Source: an uncultured Acidobacteriota bacterium
GTDB lineage: Bacteria; Acidobacteriota; UBA6911; CAINFC01
Reading direction: 5' to 3'
Length of the DNA: 64,000 nt
Assembly: GCA_903847975.1 (NCBI GenBank)
Contig: CAINFC010000216.1
Location: 1-64,000 of the forward strand
Shown here: one piece after another, positions 18,237 through 23,452 of the stretch
How the letters are laid out: each line of letters opens with the position of its first letter
How positions within the stretch are numbered: position 1 is the first letter of the stretch
The notes under the pieces: generated by a model
What the model was told of the DNA's origin: nothing
What the model saw: only the letters and a program-made list of their open reading frames with translations
The model's database searches: none
Program-made: the position numbers and the translations under genes

Positions 18237-19067
18237 GTGGCTAATTATATCAGAATGTCAAAAGGGGATTGCTTTGCGGATGCGGGAGCAAGGGTTGGTC
18301 TGGCACGTGCCCTGTCCAAGCTCGGGTTGTGCTCCCGGAGCCTTGCCGTGGAGCGGATCCGGCAGGGCCGGGTGACGGTGAACGGCCGTGTGGTCCGGGA
18401 CGCCGGGCAATGGGTTTGTCTTCTGAAAGACCGGATCCGGGTCGATGAAGGAGAGGTGCGCGAAGCAGTCAAGGTCTACCTGATGCTCCACAAGCCCCGG
18501 GGGACGGTGACCACCTGCCGGGACGAGCGCGACCGGGAGACCGTTTACCGCTGCCTGCAGGATGCCGGCCTGCCCTGGGTTTCGCCCGTCGGGCGCCTGG
18601 ACAAAGCCAGCGAGGGGCTTCTTCTTTTTACCAATGACACCCGCTGGGCGAGCGGGATCACCGATCCGGCGACGCACCTCGACAAGATGTATCACGTGCA
18701 GATCGACCGGGTGGCGGAGGAAGCGCTCCTGGAGAGGATGGCGGCCGGCGTGCCTCTGGCCGGGGGAGATTGCCTCCGGGTGAAAGCGGCGCATCTGCTT
18801 CGGCGCGGAACGAAAAACTGCTGGCTGGAAATCACGCTGGACGAAGGGCGCAACCGCCATATCCGCCGGCTTCTCCAGGTTCTGGAGGTGGGTGTGCTGC
18901 GCCTGGTGCGCATCTCCATCGGCCCCCTGCCGCTCGGCTCGCTGGCCAGGGGCTGCTGGCGCCACCTGACGCCCGGGGAAGTCGAAAGCCTCTCCCGGCG
19001 CGTCAGGGGACCCGGAAGCAGAAGGGATCTTTTTCCGCCAGCGGGTCCCGGCCGGTTCCCGCGGTGA
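18237..19067 (+). CDS. RsuA/RluB-family pseudouridine synthase
   Basis: RNA-modifying enzyme of 276 residues that isomerises a uridine in rRNA. An N-terminal S4 RNA-binding domain (ALSKLGLCSRSLAVERIRQGRVTVNG) is followed by the catalytic domain with PVGRLDKASEGLLLFTND, where the Asp is the nucleophile, and the late EGRNRHIRRL motif. The GTG at 18237 opens the frame; ATG 18255 is an equally plausible start because neither has a clear ribosome site. Its 3' end overlaps the convergent radical SAM gene by 65 bp. The target site in rRNA cannot be told from the sequence. Confidence 0.85.
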   Translation: MANYIRMSKGDCFADAGARVGLARALSKLGLCSRSLAVERIRQGRVTVNGRVVRDAGQWVCLLKDRIRVDEGEVREAVKVYLMLHKPRGTVTTCRDERDRETVYRCLQDAGLPWVSPVGRLDKASEGLLLFTNDTRWASGITDPATHLDKMYHVQIDRVAEEALLERMAAGVPLAGGDCLRVKAAHLLRRGTKNCWLEITLDEGRNRHIRRLLQVLEVGVLRLVRISIGPLPLGSLARGCWRHLTPGEVESLSRRVRGPGSRRDLFPPAGPGRFPR

Positions 19068-20010
19068 CTGCCAGGCATCCGCCGCAAGCCTTCCGGAGCC
19101 GGCACTTCCGGCAGCCCAGGCTTCCCCGCCGGTAGTCCTCCGCCGTGCGGGAGCGGTAGATGGAATCCAGGTCGCTGCTTCGAATGGACCCCAGCAGGGA
19201 GGGGAACTTGCGGCAGGCATGCACCTCTCCGTCCGGGAGCAGGGCCACGAAATTGAAGGCCGCGCCGCAGCCATAACCGGTGCAGCCCGGCAGCAAAGGA
19301 CGGCGGTGCCGTTCGCGCAGAATGTTGAACAGGTTGTCCTTGAAACCGAAGACCGGATTTGTTTTGCGGGCCAGAGAATAGGCTTCCAGAAATCCGGCAA
19401 AATCCGGCGGGGACGGCAGGAGCAGCGCCGCCCCTTCGCCGACCGGCGACAGGCGGTTGAAGGTAAATCCTTCGGTCAACCCGCGCAGCCTTTCTCCCAG
19501 GGGGAGGACCTGGTCCAGATTGTCCCGCGTCAAAGTCAGCATGACCCGGGTCGGGAGACCCTTCTGCCGCGCCAGGTGCAGAAAAGCCATGACCTTTTCA
19601 TAATGGCCGGAACCCCGGATGGAGTCGTTGTGCTCTTCCAGCCCTTCCAGGCTCACCTGGTAAAAGCCGGGCAGGCGGATACCGATCAGCCGGTCGATCT
19701 GCCGGCCGGTCGCGGGATTCCCGAGCAGCGTGACGGGGAGGTCCGCATCCGCGGCGGCCCGGTAAAGGTCCCAGAAGCAGGAATGCAGCAGCGGATCCCC
19801 TCCGGTGAGGCACAGCCGGGTTTTAACCCGGTGCCTGCGGCCGAAGGCGCGCAGATCCTCCAGCACCGCCAGGCACTCCGTGCGGTCCATCTCCGGGCGA
19901 TCGGAGCGGTCGTAGCAGTGCCGGCAGCGATAGGCACAGCGGTTGGTCAGGTGCCACTGCAAAGTGAAGGTTTCCGCTTTGCGGCCGCCCCACGCCCGCT
20001 CGCGGATCAT
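19003..20010 (-). CDS. Radical SAM/SPASM peptide maturase candidate
   Basis: Protein of 335 residues. The radical SAM cluster motif CX3CX2C is at Cys25, 29 and 32 (TNRCAYRCRHC), followed by a GGDPLLH glycine-rich segment. The C-terminus holds a SPASM-type extra-cluster region: a Cys in CGAAFNF, DGEVHACRKF, then CRKCRLRKACGGC and a terminal FC. SPASM enzymes usually modify peptides or proteins. The C-terminal pattern reminds me of the thio(seleno)oxazole-type maturase group (SbtM), but this is recollection and not a match. ATG 20010 overlaps the channel gene's stop as ATGA, so translation is coupled. The best substrate candidate is the Cys/Gly-rich tail encoded two genes upstream. Confidence 0.85.
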   Translation of the reverse strand: MIRERAWGGRKAETFTLQWHLTNRCAYRCRHCYDRSDRPEMDRTECLAVLEDLRAFGRRHRVKTRLCLTGGDPLLHSCFWDLYRAAADADLPVTLLGNPATGRQIDRLIGIRLPGFYQVSLEGLEEHNDSIRGSGHYEKVMAFLHLARQKGLPTRVMLTLTRDNLDQVLPLGERLRGLTEGFTFNRLSPVGEGAALLLPSPPDFAGFLEAYSLARKTNPVFGFKDNLFNILRERHRRPLLPGCTGYGCGAAFNFVALLPDGEVHACRKFPSLLGSIRSSDLDSIYRSRTAEDYRRGSLGCRKCRLRKACGGCLAVTAGTGRDPLAEKDPFCFRVP

Positions 20011-21761
20011 GCGACTTCCGCCGGGTCGGGAAATGGAATCCACTGGATGCCGATCACTTCGTCGCCCGGCGACCCGGAGCCGTACCGGGCATAGCTCTCG
20101 TAATCCTTTTCGCCCTGCTTTTTGATCAGGGCAGGAAATCCGTCGGACTTCTCCTCCCCGGCCGCAGCGCCTTGGGTAGGCGGGCCGGGCGGTATCACCT
20201 GGTGCCTGACCAGCATCAGGCTGTCCGGCAGAAGAATGCCCTGCAGGATTTCGGGGCAGAAGACCGCTCCCACGAAGGTCGGGGCCGCGGCTCCGGAAAC
20301 GCTTTGAATGGCATCGATGTGCAGGTCGTGGCGGATCTTCTCCTCCAGCTTGTCGTCGAAAATCCGCAATACCACCCGGCAGGCTGAATCCGCGCGCTTT
20401 CCCGCCAGCCCGATGCTCAGGTTGGCCAGGTCGTCGTCGGTCACCGCCAAAATGGCTTTGGCCCCGGATACGCCGGCTTTGCGCAGGGTTTCTTCCATCT
20501 GCGGATTGCCGATTACCACCGAGGCGATTTCCCGCACGGTCTGGACGAATTCGCCGTCCTCCCGTGCGCCGATGGCCACCACGGTTTCCCCGCTTCCGAC
20601 CAGGGCCCGCACCAGGCGAAAGCCGATGTCTCCCAGTCCGGCGACGATGATATGTCCCTTGAACCGCGAGCATCCCCGGGCCAGCACGTCGCGCAGCCGG
20701 GTTCCCAGCATCAGGTCGGTCATGATGCTGAACAGGATGGCCAGGGTGGCCGCCCCGCTCAGGATGACCAGCGAGCCGTACAGCTTGATCCAGGGCGGGG
20801 CGTTCATCAGGTTGAAGTCCCCGTATCCCACGGTGGCGACCGTGGCGATCACAAAATAGAAGGCATCCACCCAGGCCAGGCCCAGGTAGTAATGAAACAG
20901 GACGACGCTGAGGATGACTACGTGGAAAAGGGCGACCAGCGCAAAGCGCAGGGCTCCCGGAGCGTCGCGCCACCACTCGCCGATGCCGGCCCATGCCGCC
21001 CTCCAGCTGCCCGGCCTCCGCCGCCGGAACGGGCCTTTCCCCGCCTTGCCGTCGGACCGGCGCCGGGGGTTGGTCAGACGCAGTCCGATCAGCCGGGTTC
21101 CGGGTTCGAGGAGGCCATCCGCGGCGGGCTGAAAAACTGTTTTCTTTCCCGAAAGGCGGGCCACCACTTCCAGCCGGTTTACCCTGTGCCAGGCCTCGAT
21201 TGTTTTACCGACCCAGGGGGAGCCTTCCTCGATGCGGTGCTCCTCCAGAAAGCAGGTCATGCCGGATACCTCGAAGGTTCCCAGGGCGGTTTCCCCGAGG
21301 GCCGCCGCGGCGAAAGCCGGCGCCGCCAGGGCGGAGGCGGAAAGAGCCCGGCTGATTTTCATGGACTTTTCCAGGTGAACGGCCAGCTCGCGGTCGAAAA
21401 GCCGCATAACGATGGCGATTTTCGGGTTCAACCGCCGGGCATCCAGGGCGACGGAGACATTGGCCAGGTCGTCGTCGGTGACGATCAGGATCGCGCGGGC
21501 CTCGCGGATGCCGGCCTGCATGAGCAGCTTTTCATCCCGGGCATCTCCCAGAAGGACCGGGAAACAGGGCTCCGCGGCCAGCCGCCACTCTTCCTGGGTT
21601 TCCCGGGTGATGACCACTCCGCGCTCTCCCAGGCGGGAAAGGACGCACAGGATCCGGTGACCGACATGGCCCAGGCCGCAGACGATCATGTGTCCGGTCA
21701 GGCGGCCGGATTCCGCGGGCAGGTTCGTTTCGGGGGTGCTTTTCTCTGGCGCGGAAGCCAA
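20007..21761 (-). CDS. Potassium channel with RCK domains on both sides of the pore
   Basis: Inner-membrane protein of 584 residues. An N-terminal RCK/TrkA-N domain carries GLGHVG at 29-34. A two-TM pore module follows, with the selectivity filter TVGYGD at about 310-315, and then a second RCK domain with GLGDIG near 375. The first RCK precedes the membrane part, an uncommon order. The longest frame starts at 21848, overlapping the upstream gene by 83 bp. I prefer the TTG at 21761, because GGAGG lies 8 nt before it at the upstream stop and the protein then begins just before the RCK fold. The 3' end is coupled to the radical SAM gene by ATGA. RCK domains usually gate K+ flux in response to nucleotides or ions. 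Confidence 0.85.
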   Translation of the reverse strand: MASAPEKSTPETNLPAESGRLTGHMIVCGLGHVGHRILCVLSRLGERGVVITRETQEEWRLAAEPCFPVLLGDARDEKLLMQAGIREARAILIVTDDDLANVSVALDARRLNPKIAIVMRLFDRELAVHLEKSMKISRALSASALAAPAFAAAALGETALGTFEVSGMTCFLEEHRIEEGSPWVGKTIEAWHRVNRLEVVARLSGKKTVFQPAADGLLEPGTRLIGLRLTNPRRRSDGKAGKGPFRRRRPGSWRAAWAGIGEWWRDAPGALRFALVALFHVVILSVVLFHYYLGLAWVDAFYFVIATVATVGYGDFNLMNAPPWIKLYGSLVILSGAATLAILFSIMTDLMLGTRLRDVLARGCSRFKGHIIVAGLGDIGFRLVRALVGSGETVVAIGAREDGEFVQTVREIASVVIGNPQMEETLRKAGVSGAKAILAVTDDDLANLSIGLAGKRADSACRVVLRIFDDKLEEKIRHDLHIDAIQSVSGAAAPTFVGAVFCPEILQGILLPDSLMLVRHQVIPPGPPTQGAAAGEEKSDGFPALIKKQGEKDYESYARYGSGSPGDEVIGIQWIPFPDPAEVA

Positions 21762-21776
21762 CGGATTAACCTCCGC
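21759..21776 (-). promoter_or_regulatory. Ribosome site deciding a TTG start of the channel gene
   Basis: On the minus strand GGAGG overlaps the last Gly codons and TAA stop of the Cys-rich membrane protein gene. It lies 8 nt before TTG 21761. This gives termination-reinitiation geometry, and the alternative ATG at 21848 lacks it. Confidence 0.55.
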
Positions 21777-22701
21777 CGCACCCGCCGCAGCCTCCGCCGC
21801 ACCCGCCTCCGCACGAGGATCCGCTGCCGCAGGAGGAGGTCGCCGCACAGCTGGAACTGCAGCTGCTTCCGCCCTGGGATTTTTTGGTCCGGCTGCCGTG
21901 GGGGACCACTGCCCCGGAAAGAGTCGAGGGGAGCACCACCAGGCCGAAAGCGGCGCCGAGAAAGGTGAATTCGCTGGTTGTCCGGCCCAGAGCGAATTCC
22001 GACCGCCGATTTTTAAGGGAGGAGAACATGGACTGGATCTGCGAAAGGACCTGGTCCCCCAGCGCGGTGCGAAACTGGCGTATCAGGGCGAAGAAAACGA
22101 AAGGCACCAGCAGGGCGAGGACAACCAGGAACAGGATGTTGGTCCGGCCCCGCTCCAGGGCGATGAAAATTTTCAGGGCCGCCACGGCCCAAAGCGCGGG
22201 GATGGCGACCTGGATCCTTTTCCTGCGCTGCGCCTGCGTTTCCGGACCGGGCAGCAGCTTTCGGGCCTGCAGCCCTTCGGCGATGATTGCCGCCTCGGCC
22301 AGCACCACCTGGTCGGTGGCGAGGGATTCCACCATGCCCGGCGAGGCGAACTTAACCAGAATGGCCTTGTCCAGCGGCCGGCGCGCCTTGGCCGCGGCGT
22401 CCGGGCCGACCGCCTGGAGCGTGGACTTTCCGCCGGGGGAAGAACTGCTGCGGGAGGTGAGCAGGCCGCGCTCCAGGAGCGAGACCAGGGCCACCCGGAT
22501 GACCTCTCCACGTCCTCCCTGCAGATAAGCCACGGCGTGGGGATCCTGAGCCAGGTAGCGGGCATGAACATCCACCAAGTCCGCCCGTCCCCCCTCCGCG
22601 GCGCGCTGCCACAAAATGATCGCCAGGGCGCCCAGGGCACAAAGAGCGATATAAAAAATGAGAAATCCCGGTCCGTAAAGATCGAAAGGATTGAGGTTCA
22701 T
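21766..22701 (-). CDS. Membrane protein with Cys/Gly-rich C-terminal tail (TIGR04222-like)
   Basis: Protein of 311 residues. One TM lies near residues 10-32, more hydrophobic stretches near 148-190 and another near 245-265. The middle contains a soluble segment (ARYLAQDPHAVAYLQGGRGEVIRVAL) like that of the uncharacterised TIGR04222 membrane-domain proteins, which often end in low-complexity tails. The last 35 residues are almost only Gly, Ser and Cys, with seven Cys spaced 3-6 residues apart. The start is one base after the nucleotidyltransferase stop. No function is established. The tail resembles a substrate for post-translational modification, and a radical SAM/SPASM enzyme is encoded two genes downstream. 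Confidence 0.8.
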   Translation of the reverse strand: MNLNPFDLYGPGFLIFYIALCALGALAIILWQRAAEGGRADLVDVHARYLAQDPHAVAYLQGGRGEVIRVALVSLLERGLLTSRSSSSPGGKSTLQAVGPDAAAKARRPLDKAILVKFASPGMVESLATDQVVLAEAAIIAEGLQARKLLPGPETQAQRRKRIQVAIPALWAVAALKIFIALERGRTNILFLVVLALLVPFVFFALIRQFRTALGDQVLSQIQSMFSSLKNRRSEFALGRTTSEFTFLGAAFGLVVLPSTLSGAVVPHGSRTKKSQGGSSCSSSCAATSSCGSGSSCGGGCGGGCGGCGGG

Positions 22702-22702
22702 C

Positions 22703-23452
22703 TCAGTCCAGCCTTTCGGAGCGCCGGTACATGGCCTCGGCCAGGGCGATCAGCTCAAAGACCACCGGGCCGGGCGTGCCCGGGGGAAGGGCTTTGGTCT
22801 CGCGCGCCTGACTGACCCGCTCCAGGGTTGGCGACCAGCGGGTCCCTGCTATTTTTTCCGCAACCCGGGCCAGCGCTTCCTTGGGGGAGCGGACCGCGGT
22901 GCCCTCCAGCTGCAGCAGGCTGGCGGCGGAAGAGCGCAGCGGGCCGGCGGCATCGGCGATGACCGCCACCAGCTGCTCCTCGCGCAGCCCGATGGCCGTG
23001 TAGCGCTCCCGCAGGCGCAAAAACAGGTTCATCAGCACCTGGCGCAGCCGTACCTTCCGGGCTTCGCGGGAGGGATTCAGCCGGGCGATGACGTCTTCAC
23101 CAAAAAGAACACGGCGCCGGCGCTGCATGTCCTCGAACTTGACGGCGAAGGCCTCCGCGGCGGCCTCCGTCTCGGAGTCGAGGAGAAACATGGCTGCGGC
23201 CCGCGCGGCCATGTAGGCGGCCCGCAGCGGCTCCCGAAAAGAGTCCACGCGATCCTTCTCGAACCGCCGCAGCACGAACAGAAGGTTCAGATCGGAGGTG
23301 CTCCGCAGGTGCCCCTCGGCGCCGCTGCCGAAAAGGATTACGCTTTGCAGATCGTCGCCGAAGCAGCTTTGGGCCGAGGCAACCAGGCTCTCGAGCAGCT
23401 TTTCGATTTCCGGAGGCAAAGCCGCTCCGGTCGGCCGCACGGCAGTATCCAT
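22703..23452 (-). CDS. Degenerate nucleotidyltransferase-fold protein
   Basis: Cytoplasmic protein of 249 residues. An N-terminal nucleotidyltransferase (pol-beta-like) fold is recognisable from LFGSGAEGHLRSTSDLNLLF. The Gly42-Ser43 pair and Asp54 are present, but the second metal-binding Asp is replaced by Asn56, so classical transfer activity is doubtful. The C-terminal half is helical and HEPN-like in character, though no RX4-6H motif is evident. ATG 23452 is chosen because GGAG lies 7 nt upstream; an ATG 18 bp earlier lacks a site. It is the first gene of a tightly packed four-gene minus-strand operon and diverges from sthA. Confidence 0.75.
   Translation of the reverse strand: MDTAVRPTGAALPPEIEKLLESLVASAQSCFGDDLQSVILFGSGAEGHLRSTSDLNLLFVLRRFEKDRVDSFREPLRAAYMAARAAAMFLLDSETEAAAEAFAVKFEDMQRRRRVLFGEDVIARLNPSREARKVRLRQVLMNLFLRLRERYTAIGLREEQLVAVIADAAGPLRSSAASLLQLEGTAVRSPKEALARVAEKIAGTRWSPTLERVSQARETKALPPGTPGPVVFELIALAEAMYRRSERLD

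Follow-up and report, generated by a model that had tools for sequence, protein, structure and literature searches.

The locus consists of four genes on the minus strand (23452-19003) of the window, the whole 64,000-nucleotide stretch of DNA that was analysed, and an open reading frame check recovered them in the order first stated (Table 1). Genes 1 and 2 are separated by a 1-nt gap and genes 3 and 4 overlap in an ATGA, as the first-pass annotation had described, although the second gap, which it gave as 5 nt, measures 4 nt up to the TTG at 21761 that is the likely start of gene 3. No Rfam families or tRNAs were found in the window. The host genome, an 8.1-Mb draft with 71 radical SAM matches, holds one TIGR04222 gene and one SbtM-type gene over cut-off, and no MNIO (PF05114) was found anywhere in it. 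Because the Cys-rich tail, the D-x-N motif and the gene order described below recur across phyla, we consider the operon more than a chance arrangement.

Table 1 Features of the four-gene locus, in positions of the window.
Feature	Position	Strand	Basis
Gene 1, pseudo-nucleotidyltransferase, MNT + HEPN-like	22703..23452	-	AlphaFold2 model, VIA-align
Gene 2, TIGR04222 membrane protein, presumed substrate	21766..22701	-	TIGR04222 100.1 bits, cut-off 43
Gene 2, codons of the Cys-rich tail (residues 276-311) and stop codon	21766..21876	-	Presumed modification sites
Gene 3, RCK-2TM-RCK K+ channel	20007..21761	-	TrkA_N twice, Ion_trans_2, TVGYGD
Gene 4, short SbtM-like radical SAM/SPASM maturase	19003..20010	-	TIGR04082 496.7 bits, cut-off 350

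Gene 1 had no Pfam match over cut-off; its AlphaFold2 model (pLDDT 92.4) has a predicted nucleotidyltransferase (MNT/ANT) fold, with an MNT domain at residues ~10-120 and a HEPN-like helical bundle at ~128-249. In VIA-align the model reached Z 13.3 (rmsd 3.7 over 213 residues) against 6p01 and Z 13.0 against AadA, with ANT(4') and AadA being the nearest structures, and Z 10 against separate MNT and HEPN chains. The catalytic D-x-D of active enzymes is replaced by D54-x-N56, and this D-x-N is invariant across all aligned copies of gene 1, which bears out the initial description of a degenerate nucleotidyltransferase.

Gene 2 combines a TIGR04222 domain and predicted transmembrane (TM) helices with a C-terminal tail, GGSSCSSSCAATSSCGSGSSCGGGCGGGCGGCGGG, that is almost only Gly, Ser and Cys, carries the seven Cys originally counted in it and ends in GGGCGGGCGGCGGG. 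The final GGGC-GG-C block is invariant in aligned relatives from both the radical SAM-type and the MNIO-type cassettes discussed below. The predicted model shows three long helices, taken as membrane-spanning, without a fourth of that sort, and a disordered tail; the stretch behind TM3 carries a strong positive charge. Gene 3 has the parts expected of an RCK K+ channel, namely a 2TM pore with the GYG-type filter TVGYGD, two TrkA_N domains around it and two GxGxxG Rossmann motifs.

Gene 4 matches the SbtM model TIGR04082 well above cut-off (the other short forms introduced below score 452-526 bits), and its next-best model, TIGR04340, reaches 142 bits; the kinship with SbtM that had been put forward for HMM comparison is thereby supported. 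The match covers positions 195-516 of the 516 in the model, such that gene 4 is not a full-length SbtM and is without its N-terminal ~195 residues. Its radical SAM motif is intact (C25-X3-C29-X2-C32), and its eight SPASM-type Cys (243, 248, 266, 300, 303, 309, 312 and 331), first noticed together with that motif, are all common to a full-length SbtM with which it shares 51% identity. Other SPASM models score lower (PapB 53, StsB 49 and AlbA 32 bits). No small SbtA-type Cys/Sec peptide lies upstream of gene 4, where the partner is the channel or the TIGR04222 protein. A profile search of 20 short-form genomes for the SbtM N-terminal domain returned nothing, and the same search found it in three of three controls. 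This domain is probably the substrate-recognition part of SbtM, and its absence from the short-form genomes implies that some other part must hold the substrate and that recognition differs. The domain has no relative in the PDB by sequence. Motifs in this region (LPDLARLEWA and AL..AV..GIL; for example L033:8294-8902) resemble the MNIO partner domain NGO1945_C; we rejected an assignment as an NGO1945/RRE-like MNIO partner, since only 2 of 27 members match NGO1945_C, weakly, with a best E of 0.02.

A scan of 84,980 species genomes for the radical SAM enzyme yielded 80 loci of two sorts: 59 long forms, with ~220 residues before the HCYD motif, which are canonical SbtM, and, outside the window, 21 short forms with ~30. 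The short forms are one clade, set off by a branch that has 100/99 support, and L043 and L097 are the outermost pair of the 22 that include the window's. Gene 1 and/or a Gly-Cys-tailed TIGR04222 gene stands directly beside the enzyme at 17 of the 21 short loci outside the window, or 18 of 22 with it (L039 is cut by a contig end before gene 1), and the cassette extends to ten phyla besides the window's: Verrucomicrobiota, Lentisphaerota, Planctomycetota, Nitrospirota, Thermodesulfobacteriota, Myxococcota, Pseudomonadota, Spirochaetota, Bdellovibrionota and Omnitrophota. In contrast, none of the 59 long loci has either neighbour within the flanking DNA examined; restricted to the 34 long loci whose flanks reach ≥3 kb on the upstream and ≥1.5 kb on the downstream side, the comparison of 17/21 short with 0/34 long gives a Fisher p of 9e-11. 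Only 1 of 20 sampled canonical-SbtM genomes encodes a TIGR04222 protein anywhere. Upstream of the long forms, 40 of the 51 loci with enough flank have a frame that passes a loose Cys/Sec-motif screen, of which many are clear SbtA-like peptides and some are probably chance matches; the upstream peptides of long SbtMs have a common [GS][CU][GS] core. The genome-wide co-occurrence that the first-pass annotation had proposed looking for was thus found, and homologues of the enzyme do not regularly stand without a Cys-rich neighbour: the long SbtMs mostly have an SbtA-like peptide upstream, and only three of the 22 short forms (L043, L052 and L097) lack a detected Gly-Cys neighbour. The proposal that the Cys tail is the substrate of the radical SAM enzyme is well supported as a prediction, given that the short clade co-occurs with Gly-Cys tails and that the same cassette exists with an MNIO.

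The MNIO-type cassettes were found by a TIGR04222 search of the window's phylum followed by inspection of wider flanking DNA. At L149 the order is gene 1, TIGR04222 with a Cys tail, MNIO (222 bits) and RCK channel, and at L146, L147 and L148 it is gene 1, TIGR04222 and MNIO with no channel; the genes in the MNIO slot score 191-267 bits against PF05114. These four, all in the window's own phylum, are the only MNIO-type cassettes with gene 1 that were seen. Gene 1 is retained with both maturase types, and the tails of the two types are indistinguishable by eye. In the TIGR04222 tree the radical SAM-type and MNIO-type proteins are intermixed, and the starred branches require two changes or more; as the trees have long branches, we make no claim about the direction and number of swaps. 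Whole-genome searches found no MNIO in the 18 radical SAM-cassette genomes, whereas an MNIO is present in all four genomes whose short radical SAM enzyme has no adjacent TIGR04222. The absence of MNIO from the 18 genomes is modest evidence when taken alone, because MNIOs are far from universal, but combined with the gene order it is strong. The best reading of these sequence comparisons is that the radical SAM enzyme and the MNIO can replace each other as thiooxazole synthases acting on one and the same tail. Our search of the available literature found no earlier report of such a swap. The first-pass annotation had recognised neither the membrane protein as TIGR04222, nor the loss of the N-terminal domain of SbtM, nor the exchange of maturases. 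Oxygen as its explanation is at most hinted at: a COX1-family oxidase is present in 15 of the 18 radical SAM genomes, which makes the argument weak, and high-scoring COX1 is found in 9/18 radical SAM and 13/14 MNIO genomes (p = 0.02), in a comparison where the MNIO sample comes from one phylum and the metagenome-assembled genomes are uneven.

The three short forms that stand apart belong to Myxococcota (L043 and L097) and Elusimicrobiota (L052), and each of their genomes has an MNIO elsewhere; in that of L052 a TIGR04222 gene lies right beside it. At L047 (12273-15139) an MNIO, a PME-like gene, a distant gene 1 homologue and two short membrane peptides, whose long Gly-Cys tails read SSCGSSCGSSC..., are convergent with a short SbtM-like radical SAM gene. 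The group represents a minimal form without TIGR04222, and its position beside the short radical SAM gene again ties the enzyme clade to Gly-Cys tails.

One explanation for these observations, which we consider probable, is that the operon is a post-translational modification cassette in which a tail is converted to thiooxazoles with the help of a pseudo-nucleotidyltransferase, binds metal and reports to a channel. SbtM is described as converting a Cys (or Sec) of its peptide to a thio(seleno)oxazole, with four hydrogens lost in the reaction (PMC11002830); 5-thiooxazoles are described as what MNIOs, together with partners, make from Cys (PMC12668002, PMC12452194). That two unrelated makers of the same group are used in turn on the same tail is our reason for naming thiooxazole as the likely product. 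The radical SAM/SPASM enzyme would oxidise Cys of the Gly/Ser-Cys-Gly tail on the TIGR04222 protein, most likely to 5-thiooxazoles as SbtM makes on SbtA, and would take the place that the O2-using MNIO occupies in sister cassettes. A probable role for gene 1 is the handling or presentation of the Gly-rich tail, or else the sensing of a nucleotide; handling of the tail would explain how the enzyme manages with the N-terminal domain of SbtM missing. Once modified, the tail would hold a soft metal, for instance copper, at the membrane, and in cassettes with the K+ channel it would report to the channel's RCK domain. Points against this explanation are the missing N-terminal domain, the lack of a channel in half of the cassettes, the three short forms with no Gly-Cys neighbour, the MNIO operon next to the radical SAM gene at L047 and the restriction of the four MNIO-type cassettes with gene 1 to one phylum.

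The part played by the channel is the least certain element of this interpretation. The channel is present in nine of the 18 radical SAM cassettes (the window, L019, L022, L027, L028, L032, L037, L039 and L044) and in one of the four MNIO cassettes with gene 1 (L149), and must be optional since half of the cassettes lack it. One may postulate, on these counts, that the channel is a passenger at a tolerant insertion site and that the conserved unit is gene 1, TIGR04222 and the maturase; this scenario concerns the channel only and is compatible with the preferred explanation of the tail. It is possible, although we would not expect it, as the channel is found repeatedly, in several phyla and alongside either maturase, its gene either separates substrate from maturase or directly follows the maturase, and at L032 it is fused in frame to the tail. 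There, one 874-aa frame (L032:11043-13667, minus strand; an assembly error is possible) runs from TIGR04222 through the Cys tail into an RCK-2TM-RCK channel, such that the tail is the joint between the two and lies next to an RCK domain. RCK domains are cytosolic in known channels. A cytosolic tail is favoured by this fusion, and likewise by the three predicted TM helices of gene 2 without a fourth and the positive charge after TM3; the published proposal in PMC12452194 is that TIGR04222 tails are periplasmic, a poor match for a tail that acts directly on an RCK domain in the cytosol. The L032 fusion and the MNIO-plus-channel cassette argue for a functional link between tail and channel, and it is plausible that a modified tail, perhaps with metal bound, would control the channel, much as the first-pass annotation had supposed. 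The fullest version, in which a K+ channel is controlled by a ribosomally made, metal-binding thiooxazole tail, on a partner or fused, with two unrelated maturases exchanged, is doubtful as a whole.

An alternative that retains the tail as substrate is that the radical SAM enzyme makes something other than a thiooxazole, such as a thioether cross-link of the sactipeptide or ranthipeptide type. The loss of the N-terminal domain, the many Cys in the tail, the substantial divergence from SbtM and the presence of ranthipeptide and sactipeptide maturases among the lower-scoring SPASM relatives (PapB, StsB, AlbA) are all consistent with it. We regard it as unlikely, however: the SbtM score lies far above that of TIGR04340, the MNIO that takes the same slot is known to turn Cys into thiooxazole, not to form cross-links of this type, and few residues other than Gly, Ser and Cys are available in the tail as cross-link partners. 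A membrane stress unit, in which the radical SAM enzyme has another substrate and the unmodified tail is a metal or disulfide switch for the channel, might be suspected from the Gly-Cys tails on many TIGR04222 proteins, the third of TIGR04222 genomes that lack an MNIO according to PMC12452194 and the three short radical SAM genes without a tail gene, but it is very improbable when either of two unrelated Cys-modifying enzymes fills the slot and the short clade overall is tied to Gly-Cys tails.

Under the preferred thiooxazole reading, the operon is a variant assembled from known parts, with the maturase swap as the new element. A close counterpart is the SbtM/SbtA thio(seleno)oxazole system (TIGR04082; Lewis et al. 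2021, as cited in PMC11002830 and PMC12538549), with which it shares a radical SAM/SPASM catalytic part over cut-off, all cluster Cys and target Cys in a Ser/Gly context. It differs in that gene 4 belongs to a separate clade without the N-terminal ~195-residue domain, in that the presumed target Cys sit in the tail of a three-TM protein of 311 aa that lacks Sec and not in a small leader peptide, and in the extra pseudo-nucleotidyltransferase and channel. TIGR04222 proteins, of which there are over 3,500 sequences, have already been proposed as MNIO substrates, with their modification and role stated to be open, in the available text of PMC12452194, which reports no radical SAM maturase, channel or nucleotidyltransferase with TIGR04222. 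Those clusters have the same substrate family and a similar Cys tail, and the same pseudo-nucleotidyltransferase in four genomes, one of which also has the channel, but the maturase here is a radical SAM enzyme unrelated to MNIO in a genome that lacks one. Bufferins, which are MNIO-made thiooxazole copper chelators, resemble the predicted product in modified Cys and metal binding, although they are small peptides that are exported, carry Sec signals and have PME-type 1 partners, whereas here the substrate would be a membrane protein without such a signal. FGE and the anaerobic sulfatase maturase, an O2-using and a radical SAM enzyme, serve the same protein substrate. They are a parallel in how the pair works; enzymes, substrate and modification are different, and O2 as the reason is weakly supported in the present case.

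A second, unrelated type of thiooxazole-maker in the same slot is independent evidence on the modification and predicts it for both kinds of cluster. If correct, SbtM chemistry would reach beyond small peptides to a membrane protein's tail, and there would be one more example of a single task shared between an O2-using enzyme and a radical SAM enzyme. The recurrence of the channel, once fused through the tail, suggests a possible part for these groups in ion control and not in metal chelation alone.

The TIGR04222 fold had no significant match in Foldseek; among the VIA-align matches listed for the model, RRF had Z 9.5 and GOLPH3/Vps74 a weak Z of 7-8.5 (residues ~48-272), and the L032 protein matched DUF2207_C below cut-off (E 3e-5). 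TIGR04222 is possibly a distant relative of GOLPH3/Vps74 and DUF2207_C.

A wider family of gene 1 occurs in 75 of 392 Acidobacteriota genomes at E <= 1e-15, cassette genomes counted in; D-x-N is dominant in it, and L124 is an exception with D-x-D. At the other Acidobacteriota loci examined, the usual neighbours of the family are a LemA protein and a TPM-domain membrane protein whose tail is Gly-rich, and the family may be a partner of the LemA/TPM pair that has not been described before. As a Gly-rich-tailed membrane protein is common to both contexts of gene 1, we propose its putative tail-handling role. Among L121-L145, the TPM-domain neighbour (checked with Pfam at L132, L126 and L121) ends in GGFGGGGxFGGGGAGGxW.
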